Source: a virus. From it: 22,012 nt of DNA. The DNA lies in IMG/VR virus record IMGVR_UViG_3300037110_000322, positions 1 through 22,012 of that record. The stretch is one strand, 5' to 3'. The translations under genes were made by a program, and so were the position numbers. Numbering within the stretch: the first letter of the stretch is position 1; each line of letters starts with the position of its first letter. Under the pieces are notes generated by a model, which saw only the letters and a program-made list of their open reading frames with translations, searched no databases and was not told the DNA's origin. Positions 8,682-22,012 of this stretch are shown here, one piece after another.

Positions 8682-11324
8682 ATGGCAGTCCCATTTTTTT
8701 CCGACATTTATAAACTGTTCTACTACGCCACCAAACTAGGTCCGTACGAAACCGCCCATGATGACGACAACATTGAGGGCGTTGGTATCGGGTCGCCAGA
8801 TGCCAAATGGAACCTTCAGAACGCCAGTTGGGGTGGTCCCCAATCTCCGACGCTAATCCAGATCGCAGATAGTCAGGATTACATTGACCTATCAACAGTC
8901 ACCAATCGTAAGGCACGATACAAGGAATATGACCGTCTGGAAGTGGTCCCGGAGATATATACGGCCCTGAATACATTTGCTGACGAATCTTGTCTTGCAG
9001 GCGAAACCAAGATCGCTACGCCGTTCGGATTTATCTCCATCCAAGAGAAGGCGGAGACTTGCAAGGAAGGCGAACAGTTCTTAGTTTATTGTTGGGACTT
9101 TGAGAAAAACGATTTCAGTCTCGGATGGGCCTATGACCCAAGATTGGTAAAGAAGGCCGAAACCGTAGAGGTGTCTTTTGATAATGGCAAGAGCCATGTT
9201 TGCACACCAGATCATAGGTTCTTGACGCTTGATAACCAATGGGTATGTGCCGGTGATTTGCAACAAGGCATGCCACTCAAAGCATTTTACCGCCTCCCAG
9301 CTAATCCCGAAGTCACCAAAATGAAGACAAAGCAGTTCCCCCGCATCTTCACCTACAGGGATGGCTGGATGCACGAACGGCAGTTACTTGACGAGTGGAA
9401 GTCCGCTAAGCGGATTGACAAATATCAGAAACTCAACAAGATTTCAAGACACATGGCTCGGGGACTTCATAAGACTCAGTTAATCGAAGCCGCTGATATG
9501 TGGTGGAGGAGTATTGAAGGAGCGTTAAGACGAGAGGGTTTCAGTTACAGGGAGATGTTAGACCTTAATGCTAACTTCGCCAAGGAACGTACTGTTGTTC
9601 GTGTGAAGAAACATAAGGAAGTTGATGTATATGACCTCTCGGTTGAGGGCCATGAGAATTTCGCAACCGACTGCACGATAGTTCATAACTGCCAGACGAA
9701 TGACAAAGGTTATGTTTTCCAAGTCTCATGCTCTAACGAAGAGGTGAAAGAGGAGTCTGACTTCCTGGTTCATAGGCTACTTGGGATGGATGATAGGGCT
9801 TGGGGCATTGAACGAAATCTATGCAAATATGGCGACCAGTTCTTTGAGATCATTATAGACCCACAGAACCCGAAACGTGGTGTATTGAAGCTCCAAGTGC
9901 TGCCCGCCGACAGCATGTATCGCATTGAGACAGTTAAAGGTCGTCTTGTAGAGTTCCAGCAGAGTCAAGAAGGCCCAGACTATCAATCTCTATCCAGAGT
10001 TGAAATTACAAGGGCCTCCGAATCAGAATTGATGCAAGCCACAGCCTTGCGGTTCCACCCGGAACAGGTGGTTCATGCTAAGATTGGAGATGATCGTAAG
10101 ACCTTCTATCCGTATGGCATATCAATGATTGAGGCTGCGAAGGGTCCGGCTAACCAACTCCGTCTTATGGAAGATGCCATGTTAGTCTATAGATTAACAC
10201 GAGCCCCCGAACGAAGAGTCTTTTATATCGATGTTGGTCAAATTGCCCCTAATAGAGCAGAGGCAATGCTAGACCGATTGAAAGACCAGTTCCGTAAGAA
10301 GAAGGTGTTCAGCAATGGACCGGGTGGCTCCAAGCCAGGGGCTTCGGGAGTCGAAGAACGTTGGAACCCGATCCCGCCAGACGAAGACTTCTTTATCGCT
10401 ATGCGGCCAAATAGCCAGACTCGTATTGATACGTTGCCTGGGGCCGAGAACTTGGGTGAGATTGATGATGCGCTTTACTTCCGCCAGAGATTATTCACAG
10501 CCTTACAGTTCCCCAAGAACTACTTAACTAACGAAGACGCACAAGCTACGAAGCTAACGCTATCGCAGCAAGACGTTCGCTTCGCAAGGCTCATCGAACG
10601 TCTGCAAAAACCGTTTGCTCGGGCTGTTCAGGATGTAGTTTTGCGGCACTTGAAGCTACGAGGGTATCCGCAAGAGGCATTTGCCGACCTTGAAATCAAG
10701 ATGACACCGCCATCTGATTGGCGTCAAATTAACCGTAACGAGGTAACGGAAGTTCTTTTCAACCGTGCGGCTGCTATGAAGGGCTCAAAGTTGATGTCAG
10801 ATTATGACATTTACATGAAGATACTTGCCACGGCCTTTAACCTTGATGAACAAGAGGCTAAGGACATGATACAAAGGAACCGAGCCCAGAACATGGAGGA
10901 CTTGAAGATGCAGATCATCGGAGCGAATCCAGAGTCTCTTGGTCTTGTTCCTATGCCAGCGGACCAGGGCCAACAAATTGGTACAGGTGAGGGAGGTCCG
11001 AACCCCATGTTGTCGCCACCAGGAGCAGAGCAGCAATCGGCAAGTACGCCGGGTAGCGAACAGCCCCCAGAAGGCGCACCTCCGGGTGGCCCAGAAGGTC
11101 AAGGTGGTCCTCCACCGGGTCCGGGTGGTCCGGGCGAAGAGCCGCCACCAGATCAAGGCGCACCAGACGGTGGACAGGGTCCGAAACCAGCCCCATCACC
11201 AAAGGGAACCGCTACCAAACTTCCGAAACCATCAGATGATGACATTAAGAAGTATGACCTAACGATCACTGGTAGTAAGTATATGGACGAGGAAGAAACC
11301 GACGTGGGAGAGATTGGGGGCTAA
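8682..11324 (+). CDS. Portal protein (T4 gp20-type) interrupted by an intein, 880 aa precursor
   Basis: The portal forms the dodecameric ring at the head vertex through which DNA enters. After removing the intein (residues 104-336) the mature protein is about 647 residues, above the usual T4 size of about 520 because of a long tail. N-extein LEVVPEIYTALNTFADES joins C-extein CQTNDKGYVFQ. Typical gp20-like regions follow, including GMDDRAWGIERNLCKYGDQF, the ATALRFHPEQVVHAKIG segment and KGPANQLRLMEDAMLVYRLTRAPERRVFYIDVG. The C-terminal part (about 765-850) is strongly Pro/Gly/Gln-rich and probably disordered. AAGGAAG precedes the ATG. The stop overlaps the stop of the convergent lipase gene. 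Confidence 0.92.
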   Translation: MAVPFFSDIYKLFYYATKLGPYETAHDDDNIEGVGIGSPDAKWNLQNASWGGPQSPTLIQIADSQDYIDLSTVTNRKARYKEYDRLEVVPEIYTALNTFADESCLAGETKIATPFGFISIQEKAETCKEGEQFLVYCWDFEKNDFSLGWAYDPRLVKKAETVEVSFDNGKSHVCTPDHRFLTLDNQWVCAGDLQQGMPLKAFYRLPANPEVTKMKTKQFPRIFTYRDGWMHERQLLDEWKSAKRIDKYQKLNKISRHMARGLHKTQLIEAADMWWRSIEGALRREGFSYREMLDLNANFAKERTVVRVKKHKEVDVYDLSVEGHENFATDCTIVHNCQTNDKGYVFQVSCSNEEVKEESDFLVHRLLGMDDRAWGIERNLCKYGDQFFEIIIDPQNPKRGVLKLQVLPADSMYRIETVKGRLVEFQQSQEGPDYQSLSRVEITRASESELMQATALRFHPEQVVHAKIGDDRKTFYPYGISMIEAAKGPANQLRLMEDAMLVYRLTRAPERRVFYIDVGQIAPNRAEAMLDRLKDQFRKKKVFSNGPGGSKPGASGVEERWNPIPPDEDFFIAMRPNSQTRIDTLPGAENLGEIDDALYFRQRLFTALQFPKNYLTNEDAQATKLTLSQQDVRFARLIERLQKPFARAVQDVVLRHLKLRGYPQEAFADLEIKMTPPSDWRQINRNEVTEVLFNRAAAMKGSKLMSDYDIYMKILATAFNLDEQEAKDMIQRNRAQNMEDLKMQIIGANPESLGLVPMPADQGQQIGTGEGGPNPMLSPPGAEQQSASTPGSEQPPEGAPPGGPEGQGGPPPGPGGPGEEPPPDQGAPDGGQGPKPAPSPKGTATKLPKPSDDDIKKYDLTITGSKYMDEEETDVGEIGG
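8991..9689 (+). other. Mini-intein inside the portal, 233 aa
   Basis: Residues 104-336 of the portal precursor have all the expected splicing blocks. Block A starts with Cys: CLAGETKIATPFGFISI. Block B is SHVCTPDHRFLT with the conserved T-x-x-H. Block F is DVYDLSVEGHENFAT. Block G is TIVHN, followed by the +1 Cys of the C-extein. Self-splicing would excise this segment and ligate the exteins. The roughly 95 residues between the splicing halves have no LAGLIDADG or HNH pattern; they are basic and helical with several Trp and Arg, so the homing nuclease has been lost or replaced. Boundaries are firm to the residue. Confidence 0.93.
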
Positions 11325-16251: not shown

Positions 16252-17709
16252 ATGTATTTTAACTCACGTTTGCTGAATGAAGCAAAAGAACTAGAGAAAC
16301 TGTGGGCAGAGACAAAGCTACTGGACGGTATCAGTGATCGTGGCGTTCGTGCCACGACCGCCGTTATGCTGGAAAACCAGCGACTTATGAATGAAGTTGC
16401 TACGGATACCAGCGATATCGCCCTGTTCAAGCGAATCTCTATCCCACTCGTACGTCGTATTTTCCCCCAGTTGATCGCAAACAAGATCGTAAGCGTTCAG
16501 CCACTACTCGGCCCAGCCGGTTTGGTTTACTACCTACGATTCCGTTATGCCTCCAACAAGGGCAACATGCGTGGTGGAGTCCTCGGTGGATTCCCAACTG
16601 ACGATGCAACATCGTTGCAGCAGTTGATGTCCGGTGATGCCAACTTGAACATCTTCTTCACGCACCAGTTCGTGCAGAACGAAGTTCAGACCAACGCCGG
16701 TGGTGGTACAACTCTGACCTACACATTGGAGAAGACTCCAGTGATCGCAGGTACAGTAACCGGTACCATCGGAACCGCCCTTAATGGTGACGGACAGACA
16801 TTCAACATCCCACAGGCCAATGCAACCGGTGCGTTGTGGGCATTGCTGAACATCACCAGCATTGGTGCTCAGCCAGCTTCCTATGTGACCGCTGGTACGC
16901 TTGACCCAGTAGCCGGTGTTTTGACCTTGACTTGGGCCGGTTCAGCCGTAGCCAACAACTACGTAACTATGAACTACGAGTATAACCTTGAATGCCAGCA
17001 AGACCTCCCAGAGGTTAACTTGGTGGTCGAGTCCGAGGAAATCGTAGCGAAGACTCGTAAGTTGAAGGCCGCTTGGAGCTATGAGGCTCAGCAAGACCTC
17101 CGTAGCCAGCACAACCTCGACGCCGAGGCTGAATTGACTGCCGTTCTTGCTCAGGAAATCAACCTTGAGATCGACCGTGAAGTGCTAACAGACCTGCGTT
17201 TGAACGCTGGTACAGTTGCCGCATGGGACTTCAATACTGCCCTTGGTGATACCATCAAAGAGAAGTATGAAAGCCTCTATGTTAAGATCGTTGAAATCTC
17301 GAACGTTGTGCATCGTAAGACCCTCCGTGGTGGTGCAAACTGGATCGTAACTTCCCCAGAAGTTGCATCTATCTTTGAGACCGCTACTGCTGGTTTTGCT
17401 CCTCAGCCTTCTGAGAACTTCACAAGCAGCATTGGTATCCAGTATGTTGGAACAGTCGCAGCCCGATGGAGAATGTACAAAGACCCGTTGTTCCCAACAA
17501 ATCAGATTTTGCTTGGTTACCGTGGGGACTCATACATGGACTCGGGGTACTTCTACTGTCCATATGTACCGTTGACCCAGACGCCTGTGGTTCTTGACCC
17601 AGAGAGCTTCTGCCCACGTAAGGGTATTCTTACAAGATACGGAAAAAAATTGTTACGAGAGGGTGCTAAATTCTATGCCCGCATGACTATTGCGAATTTC
17701 GTGGTCTGA
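16252..17709 (+). CDS. Major capsid protein (T4 gp23-type), 485 aa
   Basis: The HK97-fold shell subunit. A strong gp23 signature is VAKTRKLKAAWSYEAQQDL near residues 264-282, followed by SQHNLDAEAELTAVLAQEI and NLEIDREVLTDLR. The N-terminal delta segment (about 1-48) ends in RLMNE, and cleavage after Glu48 before VATDTSDIALF would release it, as the protease does in T4; the exact site is inference. Residues 160-250 contain a Gly/Thr/Ala-rich beta insertion that may be a surface domain. AGGAGAG lies 9 nt before the ATG. The gene is followed by a strong terminator, as expected for the most expressed structural gene. Confidence 0.95.
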   Translation: MYFNSRLLNEAKELEKLWAETKLLDGISDRGVRATTAVMLENQRLMNEVATDTSDIALFKRISIPLVRRIFPQLIANKIVSVQPLLGPAGLVYYLRFRYASNKGNMRGGVLGGFPTDDATSLQQLMSGDANLNIFFTHQFVQNEVQTNAGGGTTLTYTLEKTPVIAGTVTGTIGTALNGDGQTFNIPQANATGALWALLNITSIGAQPASYVTAGTLDPVAGVLTLTWAGSAVANNYVTMNYEYNLECQQDLPEVNLVVESEEIVAKTRKLKAAWSYEAQQDLRSQHNLDAEAELTAVLAQEINLEIDREVLTDLRLNAGTVAAWDFNTALGDTIKEKYESLYVKIVEISNVVHRKTLRGGANWIVTSPEVASIFETATAGFAPQPSENFTSSIGIQYVGTVAARWRMYKDPLFPTNQILLGYRGDSYMDSGYFYCPYVPLTQTPVVLDPESFCPRKGILTRYGKKLLREGAKFYARMTIANFVV

Positions 17710-17746: not shown

Positions 17747-17782
17747 AAAAAGCTCGCTTATCAAATGATAAGCGAGCTTTTT
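17747..17782. terminator. Bidirectional intrinsic terminator
   Basis: A 17-bp perfect inverted repeat has arms AAAAAGCTCGCTTATCA and its complement separated by 2 nt (a real loop would open the last few pairs). A-runs precede it and T-runs follow it. It stops transcription from the capsid gene on the + strand and from the nuclease gene on the - strand. Confidence 0.93.
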
Positions 17783-17800: not shown

Positions 17801-18955
17801 TTATTTGTAGAGCGTAACGGCTGGTGACCCAACCACATCTTCGAGCTTTACACCAAATACAGCTACATCTTCATCAAATAGTAGCGTATAAGTCATGTTA
17901 TGAACGGCTGCGTAGTCTTGTGCCGCTTGCTGCTTGGTTTGTACATCTAAGTTATCCTTGTTCTTCCAAAATTTGGTCTCAAAGATATGCTGTCGATTAT
18001 CGCCCTTGTACTTTACAAGAAAGTCAGGATGGTAATTATGATTAGTACCATCCGTTTTCTTATAAGGAATCACTAAAGCTTCGTAATCATACCACTCAAC
18101 ATTATCATCGTGGTCGAAAATGAAATGCATAATAAGTTCAAGTCCAGACAGAAACCGTGGATTTTCTTTTCTGCATCGTTGCGTTATATACCGGCCTCTA
18201 ACATTGGACTTAAAACCGCCATTCCAGGTGCCAGCTAGAATCTTTGACGACACAGTATCGCTGGCTTTCTTCCTTGTTTCCTCACTCTTTGGCATCCCCT
18301 TTGCCCACGGGTTAGCATAACTCTCAGCAAGCCACTCTTTGCAATGCTCACGAAGATACTCTTTCATCTCCGGTAACTCGTTGTAATGTCGCACTCCAAA
18401 CCGTTCCTCGGTCGTATCTTGCATCTTTTTAACCACATCGGGATTGCCCATTACATTGCCGCAGCCGTACAGGGCTTTGATACTCGCCATCATCTTGGCT
18501 TTGATCTCTTCTGATTTGAGCGGCACCGTCACGCCATAATTTCCCATGAGTGTTTGTTGCTGTTTCTGTTTAACACCTTCATCTTTCATTGGGTGATCCA
18601 CTCCATAATTTTCTTGGAACGTCTTTCGCCGAGCTTCGACGACCTTCTCGGTTCGCTCCTTGGTTCCAAACATTTGGTCTACTCTATTTGCGGTATTTTC
18701 GGCGGTATTCATGGCGCAACTGACGCCGTATTTTTCAAGGTTGGTTTTTTTAATCTTCTCTTGTACCGTTGGTCTTCTTGCTGGGTTGTCATCGGATTTT
18801 AACCAACATGGGCGGCAGATATGCTTACCTTTGTTTTTCATGTAATTCTTATTTGCATCAGACCATTTCAGCGTCCGCTCACCGCCACAACAATCATAAA
18901 CGACCTTAACAAGAGTGGTCGAAAATGGGTTCTCTGGTGGTGGCTCTAGGTACAT
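17801..18955 (-). CDS. Homing-type nuclease with YGV repeats and PD-(D/E)XK domain, 384 aa
   Basis: Three parts are visible. The N-terminus has paired cysteines (C22, C23 and C47-R-P-C50), probably a zinc ribbon. The middle has about five degenerate repeats of the form T-x-x-E-x-YGV-x-x-P (TNLEKYGVSCAMN at 71-83, FQENYGVDHPMK, LMGNYGVTVPLK, ALYGCGNVMGNP, TEERFGVRHYNE). Such repeats are known in phage intron- and intergene-encoded nucleases, where they contact DNA. The C-terminus has GLELI, IPYKKTDG, YHPDFLV with Asp311, and FETK with Glu326 and Lys328: a PD-(D/E)XK catalytic core. It probably cuts DNA site-specifically to spread itself. A very late start is ruled out by the zinc ribbon; the ATG at 18955 has a GAAAG before it. 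Confidence 0.8.
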   Translation of the reverse strand: MYLEPPPENPFSTTLVKVVYDCCGGERTLKWSDANKNYMKNKGKHICRPCWLKSDDNPARRPTVQEKIKKTNLEKYGVSCAMNTAENTANRVDQMFGTKERTEKVVEARRKTFQENYGVDHPMKDEGVKQKQQQTLMGNYGVTVPLKSEEIKAKMMASIKALYGCGNVMGNPDVVKKMQDTTEERFGVRHYNELPEMKEYLREHCKEWLAESYANPWAKGMPKSEETRKKASDTVSSKILAGTWNGGFKSNVRGRYITQRCRKENPRFLSGLELIMHFIFDHDDNVEWYDYEALVIPYKKTDGTNHNYHPDFLVKYKGDNRQHIFETKFWKNKDNLDVQTKQQAAQDYAAVHNMTYTLLFDEDVAVFGVKLEDVVGSPAVTLYK

Positions 18956-19157
18956 AGTATTTTACTTTCTATTATCTCTATCGGTAATAGAGTACAAATA
19001 CTTTAACATTCTTGCATAAAATTTTGCCCTTTCTCTGAAAATTGACTTGATAACATACAACTTCGCACCTTCTCACAAAATTATCTTACGTTGTCAAGTA
19101 ATTGTTTGCAATGGCCGATATAAGTTATAGGCTGATTCTATTGAGGAAAGTGTAAGT
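18956..19157. promoter_or_regulatory. Divergent AT-rich control region with operator-like palindrome
   Basis: On the - strand a TTGTAC box (18992-18997) and an ATAATA box (18970-18975) are 16 bp apart and make a plausible promoter for the nuclease. A 17-bp inverted repeat, CTCTAT-cggta-ATAGAG at 18976-18992, fills the spacer, where a bound repressor would block RNA polymerase. On the + strand TATAAG at 19119-19124 and GAGGAAAG before 19158 could serve the restriction-modification gene. No regulator gene is seen nearby. Confidence 0.5.
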
Positions 19158-21458
19158 ATGAGCGAAAGAAGCAAAACGGATGTAATTACTAGGAAAAAGC
19201 TAGAAGAGGCTGGATTCTATAAGGACTCCGACTGGAATATCTACGAAGAAGAAACGGAAGATTCAATAATTCAAGAACTATTGAAACATGCTAGCAAGCA
19301 GGGTAACAATGGACGTGGAAAACCGGAATTCATAGGGGTTCACAAGAAATCACATACGGTACTTATTGTTGAAGATAAACTTGATCCCAAAAAACACATT
19401 AGCAAAGATTTAGATCACCCAGCCGATTTTGCTGTAGATGGAGTGTTGCATTATGCTTCTAAGTTAATAGATCACTTCGACATAATCGCTGTTGGCTGTA
19501 GTGGCGGGGACGAATCTGAATTCACAGTATCATCATATCTTTGGAGAAAGGGCGAATCCAAACCAGGATTAGTTGCAGACAAATTTTTAAGTTCTCAAGA
19601 TTACCTCTCTGTGATAAATAGAGATGTCGAAATCATTAACCAAGTACGAGGTAATTTGAGAGGATTTTCAAGACAATATCATAACGACTTACGAGATTAT
19701 GCGAAGTTATTAGAAGAACAAAAACCCGTTTTTGTTGGAGCAATACTCACAGCCTTAACCGATCCAGCGTTCAGAAAAACTTATAGAGAATACAAAGGTA
19801 GGCCGGTAGAACTTGCCGATATGACGGTCAATCACATCAGGCAAGTTCTTAACATATGGATAGATGACGAGCAGAAAAGGCAGTACATCTTACATAGCGT
19901 TGGCTTTATAAAAGTGCATCCAACGTTCGCAAACGTCAAGAGTAACGTGTTGATGGACTTGATTGATTCATTAGAGAGAAATGTTCACCCCGAAGTAGAT
20001 AAAGATGTTACCCACCTCGATATGTTAACGGAATTCTATCGAGAATTTGTTCGTTACTCAGGTGGCGATGGGAAGGGTCTTGGGATTGTAATGACGCCGC
20101 CGCATATTTGTGATTTGTTTGCTGAGATGGCGAACTTACACGAAAACTCCAGGGTGCTTGATTGTTGTATGGGGACTGGTGGGTTTCTTGTAGCAAGTTT
20201 GTCTAATCTAAAAATGAAATTTGGTAATGATGAAGCTGGGCTGGCTGAGTTTCAACGTAACAATCTTATTGGGGTCGAACAACAAGCCAACATGTTTACA
20301 TTGTCTTGCATCAATATGATGTTGAGAAAATGCAATCCCGACAACTTTTATCTTGGAAGCTGCTTTAATCTAACTGAGGATGTTAAATCGCATAGATGTA
20401 ATGTAGGATTTCTCAATCCTCCTTATTCTCAGAAGGGGCAAAATCTCAAAGAATTTGATTTTGTTGAACATATGATGAATTGTCTAACAGAGGGCTCACT
20501 AGGATTCGCAATTCTGCCTATGAGTTGCGCTGTTGGGGGTAGCGTAGAAAAATCCCGCCTATTGAAAAATCATACGCTTGTGGCGGCGATGTCGATGCCC
20601 GATGATCTGTTTTATCCCACGGGAGTTGTACCATGCATTTTAGTTTTTAAGGCCCATATACCGCATAACAGCAAGATAGAGACATGGTTTGGTTATTGGA
20701 AAGACGATGGACATATTAAAATAAAGAAGGAAGGAAGGGTAGATTATTATAACCAATGGGCTCAAATTAAGTGTCAATGGGTCGATATGTTCCTCAACCA
20801 AAAAGAGTTACCAGGGATAGGCGTAAAACACAAGGTATCATCGGAAGACGAATGGTGTGCAGAAGCCTATGTAGAAACAGATTATAATAAGATATCAGCA
20901 AACGATTTCAGGGCTAACACATTGAGCTACTTATCCCATCGAGTGTTACGTGGCGACTTAGGTGTGGTGAAAGGCATCGATGCAGGCAAATCAAATATTA
21001 TCTTAGATAGCAATAAATGGTCTCCATTCTCATTAGCAGAATTATTTCAACTAAAAAAAGGTCGACGGATAGTGAAAAAAGACAGTATTCTAGGCTCAAC
21101 CGCCTTTGTCAGTGCTACAGACGCAAATAATGGAATTAGCAACTATCTTGATATTGAACCAGATTATCAAGGAAATGCTATCACCGTTAATTATGACGGA
21201 AGCGTAGGTGAGGCGTTCTACCAAATAGACCCGTTCTTTGCTCTTGATTCTGTCAATGTTCTAATACCTAAATTCGACTTGAATGTCTACCGAGCGATGT
21301 TTCTAATTACCATTATTAAGATGGAGCGGTTTAAGTTTAGTTATGGCAGAAAATGGCATCTTGGTAGGATGCGGCAGTCAAAGATCAAGTTACCAGTGAC
21401 GATAGAGGGTGATCCTGACTGGGGGTTAATGGAGAATTATATCAAGTCAATTATTTGA
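19158..21458 (+). CDS. Single-chain restriction-modification enzyme (type IIG-like), 766 aa
   Basis: Domain order: an N-terminal nuclease-like region with KPEFIGV and IVEDKLD (Glu57, Glu72, Lys74 as a PD-(D/E)XK-type core); a helical linker; a type I HsdM-like N6-adenine methyltransferase with VMTPPHICDLF (311-321), SAM motif VLDCCMGTGGFL (333-344) and catalytic NPPY (420-423); and a C-terminal single target-recognition domain beginning WSPFSLAELFQLKKGRRI, as in HsdS half-subunits. Fused nuclease-methylase-specificity proteins of this kind cut outside their recognition site and methylate it. One recognition domain only suggests a half-site or dimer. GAGGAAAG supports the start. Base composition is more AT-rich than the head genes, which suggests recent acquisition. 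Confidence 0.88.
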   Translation: MSERSKTDVITRKKLEEAGFYKDSDWNIYEEETEDSIIQELLKHASKQGNNGRGKPEFIGVHKKSHTVLIVEDKLDPKKHISKDLDHPADFAVDGVLHYASKLIDHFDIIAVGCSGGDESEFTVSSYLWRKGESKPGLVADKFLSSQDYLSVINRDVEIINQVRGNLRGFSRQYHNDLRDYAKLLEEQKPVFVGAILTALTDPAFRKTYREYKGRPVELADMTVNHIRQVLNIWIDDEQKRQYILHSVGFIKVHPTFANVKSNVLMDLIDSLERNVHPEVDKDVTHLDMLTEFYREFVRYSGGDGKGLGIVMTPPHICDLFAEMANLHENSRVLDCCMGTGGFLVASLSNLKMKFGNDEAGLAEFQRNNLIGVEQQANMFTLSCINMMLRKCNPDNFYLGSCFNLTEDVKSHRCNVGFLNPPYSQKGQNLKEFDFVEHMMNCLTEGSLGFAILPMSCAVGGSVEKSRLLKNHTLVAAMSMPDDLFYPTGVVPCILVFKAHIPHNSKIETWFGYWKDDGHIKIKKEGRVDYYNQWAQIKCQWVDMFLNQKELPGIGVKHKVSSEDEWCAEAYVETDYNKISANDFRANTLSYLSHRVLRGDLGVVKGIDAGKSNIILDSNKWSPFSLAELFQLKKGRRIVKKDSILGSTAFVSATDANNGISNYLDIEPDYQGNAITVNYDGSVGEAFYQIDPFFALDSVNVLIPKFDLNVYRAMFLITIIKMERFKFSYGRKWHLGRMRQSKIKLPVTIEGDPDWGLMENYIKSII

Positions 21459-21484: not shown

Positions 21485-22012
21485 CTAAACATCGGCACGA
21501 TTGCAGAGGGCATGCCAATCAATATGTGGTCCGCAACGATCAAATGCTTCAAAATCTATAAAGCGTTTTCGTAATTGACGATTAGCCTTGATTGCTTTAT
21601 GTAAGACATTACGAAATGTAAGAAAGATATCCACGGATGATTGGTTTGGGGATGTCCCCATTTCAAGCAATTTATCTCTCCATTCAATTTTCTTGCGGTT
21701 GCTAAAACAAACATGCTTAGATTTAGTGAAATACCAATCTGCTCGAATCTGAGTACATACAGCATGTATTTCTATAGCTCCAATAAGTTCATTATACTTG
21801 ACTGGATAGAGTGATCCTTGTAAAAGTTTTTGTTGTAGTCTGTCTCGATCCTCCACAGAAAAATATGGCACAAGAGCATTTGGATAACAATTATCAACCA
21901 CTTTAGCCAATCTATCACTTTGCCGTCGATAGAAACTACTTTGGTCGCATACATACACCAAGATTTCAAATATCGTGTCGTTTATCATATGATATAAGAG
22001 ATATTGAAACAA
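21485..22012 (-). CDS. Hypothetical protein, AT-rich, possibly truncated by the window
   Basis: The frame is open to the right edge, so the start may lie outside. An internal ATG at 21988 (MINDTIFEILVYVC) would give 167 residues but has no clear Shine-Dalgarno site. The protein is basic, with Cys, His and aromatic residues, and a segment DIFLTFRNVLHKAIKANRQLRKRF that is helical. I see no recognised domain, signal peptide or membrane segment. It is convergent with the restriction-modification gene and shares its AT-rich composition, so the two may have been acquired together. A role linked to that system is speculation. Confidence 0.55.
   Translation of the reverse strand: MFQYLLYHMINDTIFEILVYVCDQSSFYRRQSDRLAKVVDNCYPNALVPYFSVEDRDRLQQKLLQGSLYPVKYNELIGAIEIHAVCTQIRADWYFTKSKHVCFSNRKKIEWRDKLLEMGTSPNQSSVDIFLTFRNVLHKAIKANRQLRKRFIDFEAFDRCGPHIDWHALCNRADV

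Follow-up and report, generated by a model that had tools for sequence, protein, structure and literature searches.

The 22,012-base IMG/VR viral record analysed here over its full length (the window) carries an intact 766-aa open reading frame that joins a nuclease, an adenine methylase and one target recognition domain (TRD) in a single chain. We consider it probable that this is an intact BcgI-family Type IIG restriction-modification (RM) enzyme with the layout of HaeIV, gained horizontally as phage cargo, which would work as a dimer and both methylate and cut DNA in infection. The enzyme design is an established one, and a giant phage is a new carrier of this known RM weapon. If the enzyme is active, a giant phage would possess a complete sequence-specific cut-and-mark weapon of a class usually viewed as host defence. 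This would offer a simple test of whether RM serves giant phages for keeping out rivals or for shredding the DNA of the host, as has been proposed for algal and amoebal giant viruses.

Table 1. Coordinates of the RM gene, its parts and the neighbouring features in the window
Feature	Position	Strand	Basis
gp23-type major capsid protein; marks the carrier as a giant T4-like phage	16252..17709	+	profiles, capsid comparisons
Two-way intrinsic terminator, 16-pair stem; closes the gp23 transcript	17747..17782	.	sequence
Homing-endonuclease-type gene with DUF7487 and TnsA-like nuclease domains; follows gp23 and precedes the RM gene	17801..18955	-	profiles, phage matches
Good ribosome-binding site GAGGAAAG, 7 nt 5' of the ATG	19143..19150	+	sequence
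Single-chain Type IIG/IIB-like RM enzyme (nuclease - methylase - one TRD)	19158..21458	+	ORF, profiles, AF2 model
Nuclease core, about aa 24-130 (PE57, E72-x-K74, D94)	19227..19547	+	conserved columns, secondary structure
HsdM-type gamma-class N6-adenine methylase domain, aa 262-593	19941..20936	+	profiles, conserved columns, solved relatives
Single TRD (aa 616-766); corresponds to the C-terminal half (TRD2) of two-TRD BcgI-type S subunits	21003..21455	+	alignment, profiles

Domain structure and conserved residues

The reading frame starts with an ATG at 19158 and ends with a TGA at 21456-21458. Residues 5-591 of its product matched the Type IIG RM profile of PADLOC (REase_MTase_IIG) with an E value of 1.6e-98, and separate profile matches placed all three parts of the protein far above chance: the N-terminal 250 aa alone matched the Type IIG profile (1.5e-20), the N6_Mtase profile covered aa 288-593 (1.4e-22), and the Methylase_S profile covered aa 620-763 (9.8e-16). 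By profile match, the protein is a nuclease fused N-terminally to a gamma-class adenine methylase, which is the arrangement of Type IIG enzymes. The first-pass annotation had proposed a nuclease, an HsdM-type methylase and one TRD in one chain, an N terminus from a nuclease family, and an affinity to BcgI and Type IIG enzymes in a phage; these profile searches, together with the T4-type head genes described below, bear this out.

Alignment with 91 homologues revealed a nuclease motif consisting of P56-E57 and E72-x-K74, followed by D94-G95 and Y99. The columns of P56, E57, E72, K74 and D94 are at least 97% conserved in the homologues, and all of these residues are kept in the window copy. The order of strands and helices in the N-terminal domain, taken from the secondary structure of an AF2 model, fits PD-(D/E)XK folds; with PE57, E72 and K74 in the family-wide conserved set, the active site is of the PD-(D/E)XK type. 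The HSDR_N_2, VRR_NUC and PDDEXK_11 profiles gave weak matches only, to relatives, and the isolated nuclease domain gave no significant Foldseek match (HincII and MunI were among the weak ones). The nuclease motif of BsaXI, a Type IIB enzyme, is of the same type. Mutation has shown its residues E73, D90, E105 and K107 to be catalytic, and Type IIB enzymes in general conserve them (PMC11997821). No sequence alignment of the BsaXI N terminus to the N-terminal domain of the window enzyme was obtained; judged from motif order, E57, E72 and K74 are likely the equivalents of D90, E105 and K107.

In the methylase domain, motif I is kept in the D335-CCMGTGG-F343 region (catalytic stretch D335-G339) and motif IV is kept as NPPY at residues 420-423. 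Solved HsdM relatives of this domain are 2okc and 5ybb, and the methylase part of BsaXI (8w0p, 8w2p) was profile matched at 3.8e-6. The AF2 model had a mean pLDDT of 91.3 over the whole protein and 91.4 over the N-terminal domain. Foldseek analysis of the whole model revealed matches to HsdM subunits, to the Type IIG enzymes BpuSI and DrdV, and to BsaXI over large stretches. The TM-scores were low (0.3-0.4 of the query), as would be expected if the domains are arranged differently. Unlike the window enzyme, which is a single 766-aa chain including the TRD, BsaXI has a 916-aa RM chain and a separate S subunit.

The 91-homologue alignment has 73 columns with a conservation of 97% or more; the window copy keeps 66 of these, and its consensus identity is only 46% over all columns. 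Among the near-invariant columns, D392-G393 is lost and C73 is replaced by D. These departures, along with the long branch of the copy in the tree, could reflect relaxed constraint.

The single TRD and the fused layout

When analysed alone, the last 168 aa matched positions 176-325 of a 341-position Type II specificity subunit (2.6e-25) and therefore represent the second half of a two-TRD subunit. Indeed, the TRD was up to 57% identical to TRD2 of BcgI-type S subunits (55% for the S subunit of locus L185), and the first TRD is missing. The single ORF holds the TRD2 equivalent alone, in place of a separate S gene with two TRDs. HaeIV from Haemophilus aegyptius, a Type IIG/IIB enzyme, likewise combines a nuclease, a gamma methylase and one TRD in a single polypeptide (PMC3874165). 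The likeness to HaeIV is one of layout; the window enzyme differs in being carried by a giant phage. BcgI-type two-gene systems are homologous over the whole RM part, with about 35-45% identity, but have a separate two-TRD S gene, whereas in the window TRD2 is fused to the RM chain and TRD1 is absent. A single-sequence search of solved structures with the window TRD gave no match, and for half-site prediction the BcgI-type S subunit of the gonococcus (L205) offered too remote a match (28.7%, confined to its first TRD).

The same layout was observed in 32 of 97 homologues (sequences with most of the RM part) and is therefore not a new kind; in the remaining 65, a separate S gene or none was seen. 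Single-chain carriers include Burkholderiales, Streptomyces, Planctomycetes, Fibrobacter, Bacteroidota, several candidate phyla, DPANN archaea and viral contigs. A single origin of the layout was rejected: a quick tree with SH-aLRT support needs about 19 layout changes, at least 12 of them forced by well-supported branches, and fusion or splitting has therefore recurred. We also noted separate half-length S genes with one TRD (154-164 aa) in loci L139, L141, L145, L152, L162, L189 and L192, which stand midway between S genes with two TRDs and the fused layout.

HaeIV, written R~M~[GAY], is a single chain with a symmetric site and is thought to be a homodimer (PMC3874165; PMC4027205). An EcoDXXI S subunit with the C-TRD only reads the interrupted palindrome of that TRD (PMC3874165), and engineered M-half-S fusions form dimers that methylate a palindrome (PMC6158711). 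Given these precedents and the TRD count, the best prediction for the window enzyme is a homodimer on an interrupted palindrome. Two chains would pair via their TRDs in opposite orientation, and the dimer would read a half-site, a gap of about 5-8 bp and the inverted half-site. Adenine N6 would be methylated in both half-sites, on both strands, and sites without any methyl group would be cut on both sides.

Homologues and other viral copies

The first-pass annotation regarded a complete RM enzyme within phage structural genes as unusual. This calls for correction: Sau42I is a characterised BcgI-like RM system on Staphylococcus phage phi42 (PMC4190342), and RM systems have been noted in jumbo phages, for which an action against rivals during pseudolysogeny has been proposed (PMC7824862). 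Proteins of phi42 and its relatives gave near-full-length matches to the window RM protein at about 30% identity. Unlike the single-chain window enzyme, Sau42I is encoded by two genes (bcgIA/bcgIB in a relative) in an accessory region of a temperate phage.

Three scans of viral contigs yielded about 30 BcgI-type loci. Contigs of about 40 kb hold many of them, several of these contigs also encoding tyrosine integrases, and such loci look like ordinary prophage cargo; the copies on such prophage-sized contigs also look like ordinary bacterial ones. Full RM copies were found in the giant T4-like phage of the window, in phage contigs of 204 kb (L184; single chain, beside RecA and primase-helicase genes) and 215 kb (L190; two genes, near primase and sigma-factor genes), and in a T4-like contig of 104 kb (L201; two genes, near gp5-type baseplate and topoisomerase genes). 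A further single-chain viral copy lies on a contig of 73 kb (L177). The records of L184, L190 and L177 yielded no tyrosine integrase.

The RM tree is patchy and mixed, and cellular homologues reach at most about 45% identity over the RM part. The end branches of the window copy (1.49), L184 (2.27) and L190 (2.06) are about 7-11 times the median of 0.21, yet the nuclease and methylase residues of these copies are kept. In the 91-homologue alignment, the nuclease core is kept in the window, L184, L190, L172 and L177, whereas L193 does not clearly retain it. Constraining the large-phage copies together, as a common origin would require, made the tree 26.7 log-units worse (AU p 0.048); this comparison, made post hoc and on long branches, is not decisive against a common origin. 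It is possible, although on balance doubtful, that large, seemingly non-temperate phages have repeatedly acquired RM enzymes of the BcgI family and retain them as weapons that evolve fast. Were this true, it would define a class of RM directed at other phages or at the host chromosome independently of lysogeny. The modestly new element is the long-branch copies in the window and the two 200-kb phage contigs with both active sites kept, and the main value lies in such recurrent, fast-diverging and apparently intact RM copies in large phages.

Two other loci appear to depart from the intact form. The very divergent viral BcgI-type copy L193 (851-2605) has other residues in place of the PE of the nuclease motif, and is possibly a nuclease-altered variant. 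In L205 (2447-4925; Neisseria gonorrhoeae), a transposase-like ORF occupies the place expected for the nuclease part and the front of the methylase, and a full two-TRD S gene follows; this BcgI-type RM gene appears to be broken.

Genomic position and candidate roles

Profile searches of the genes near the RM gene identified a terminase, a T4-type portal, a prohead protease and the gp23 capsid protein. The capsid protein is 70.7% identical to that of a 595-kb uncultured phage and 72-86% identical to those of 80 IMG/VR contigs, some of 223-533 kb. Most likely, then, the window derives from the genome of a giant T4-like phage, of which it is a fragment. The T4-type head genes and these close relatives identify the RM gene as giant-phage cargo, with the caveat that it stops 554 bp before the contig end. 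The first-pass annotation placed it within phage structural genes. Head genes are indeed present, but the RM gene lies beyond both the terminator and a gene whose product is matched by phage homing endonucleases, in a slot that varies: the rest of the region downstream of gp23 differs among relatives. No RM match was present in the relatives' MCP loci, nor was the gene found in 16 whole relative contigs (58-533 kb, possibly incomplete; the profile search had no positive control among these records). A conserved part in the head cluster was rejected on these grounds; the RM gene is accessory cargo in a variable slot behind gp23, outside the head module. The two-way terminator separates gp23 from the convergent homing-endonuclease-type gene, homologues of which occur behind gp23 in both orientations in many relatives. 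Counts of sigma-70-like promoters near the RM gene barely exceeded those in shuffled sequence, with none at the gene start.

An AT-rich ORF (21485-22012, minus strand) is convergent with the RM gene and is cut by the contig end. The suggestion that it is a partner of the enzyme was dropped as unsupported: no match was found in Pfam, PHROGs, phage records, viral contigs or 204 fetched loci, a single NCBIfam match was weak and sub-threshold (SelO, 0.022), and this enzyme type needs no partner.

In infection, newly made enzyme would maintain methylation on replicated phage DNA, which would exit the cell methylated and enter the next cell protected. Unmethylated DNA would be cut, whether of superinfecting phages or plasmids or perhaps of the host chromosome. 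Protection of phage DNA, destruction of other DNA and addiction, all raised by the first-pass annotation, are each possible, and sequence does not choose among them. Rival exclusion is the role we prefer, at a little short of even confidence, ahead of cutting of the host chromosome, anti-restriction methylation and selfish persistence. Chloroviruses and marseilleviruses are large lytic viruses that also carry a full RM system thought to act against rivals, and the RM enzymes of marseilleviruses can cut the DNA of rival viruses but do not degrade that of the host (PMC7253447). Unlike the window enzyme, these are Type II systems with separate nuclease and methylase genes, and their hosts are eukaryotic.

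Alternatively, the enzyme may be selfish cargo that moves with the homing endonuclease and persists by mobility or post-segregational killing, with no benefit to the phage. The adjoining homing-endonuclease-type gene does recur behind gp23, in 13 of 56 relatives by direct match and 22 of 34 by clustering, and the enzyme's patchy, mixed tree and the failure to find it in the 16 relatives fit such a history. However, the two genes occur together in no relative examined, the L184, L190 and L201 copies lie in other surroundings, and addiction would be hard to envisage if the window phage is lytic. We regard this explanation as unlikely. Somewhat less likely again is an anti-restriction methylase, in which methylation protects phage DNA against a host RM system that shares the enzyme's specificity, and cutting is weak or irrelevant. 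Phage methylases used in this way are common (PMC4190342), and the several departures from conserved columns would agree with it, but E57, E72, K74 and D94 have been kept after long divergence, which is unexpected for a dispensable domain, and the nuclease shares one chain with the methylase. Joining of a bacterial RM gene to a phage contig by mis-assembly is very improbable: the gene ends close to the contig end, the last ORF has no phage homologue and GC drops from 0.50 to 0.39 in the window, but GC falls behind gp23 in most relatives too, a clade-typical homing endonuclease directly precedes the RM gene, and its cellular homologues show no more than about 45% identity in the RM part.

We also observed that the T4-type portal gene (8682-11324) bears an intein at aa 104-336 (PF14890, 7e-14). 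Among the roughly 44 relative loci that gave a portal match, 41 have an intein homologue, and the element seems to be nearly fixed in this giant-phage clade.
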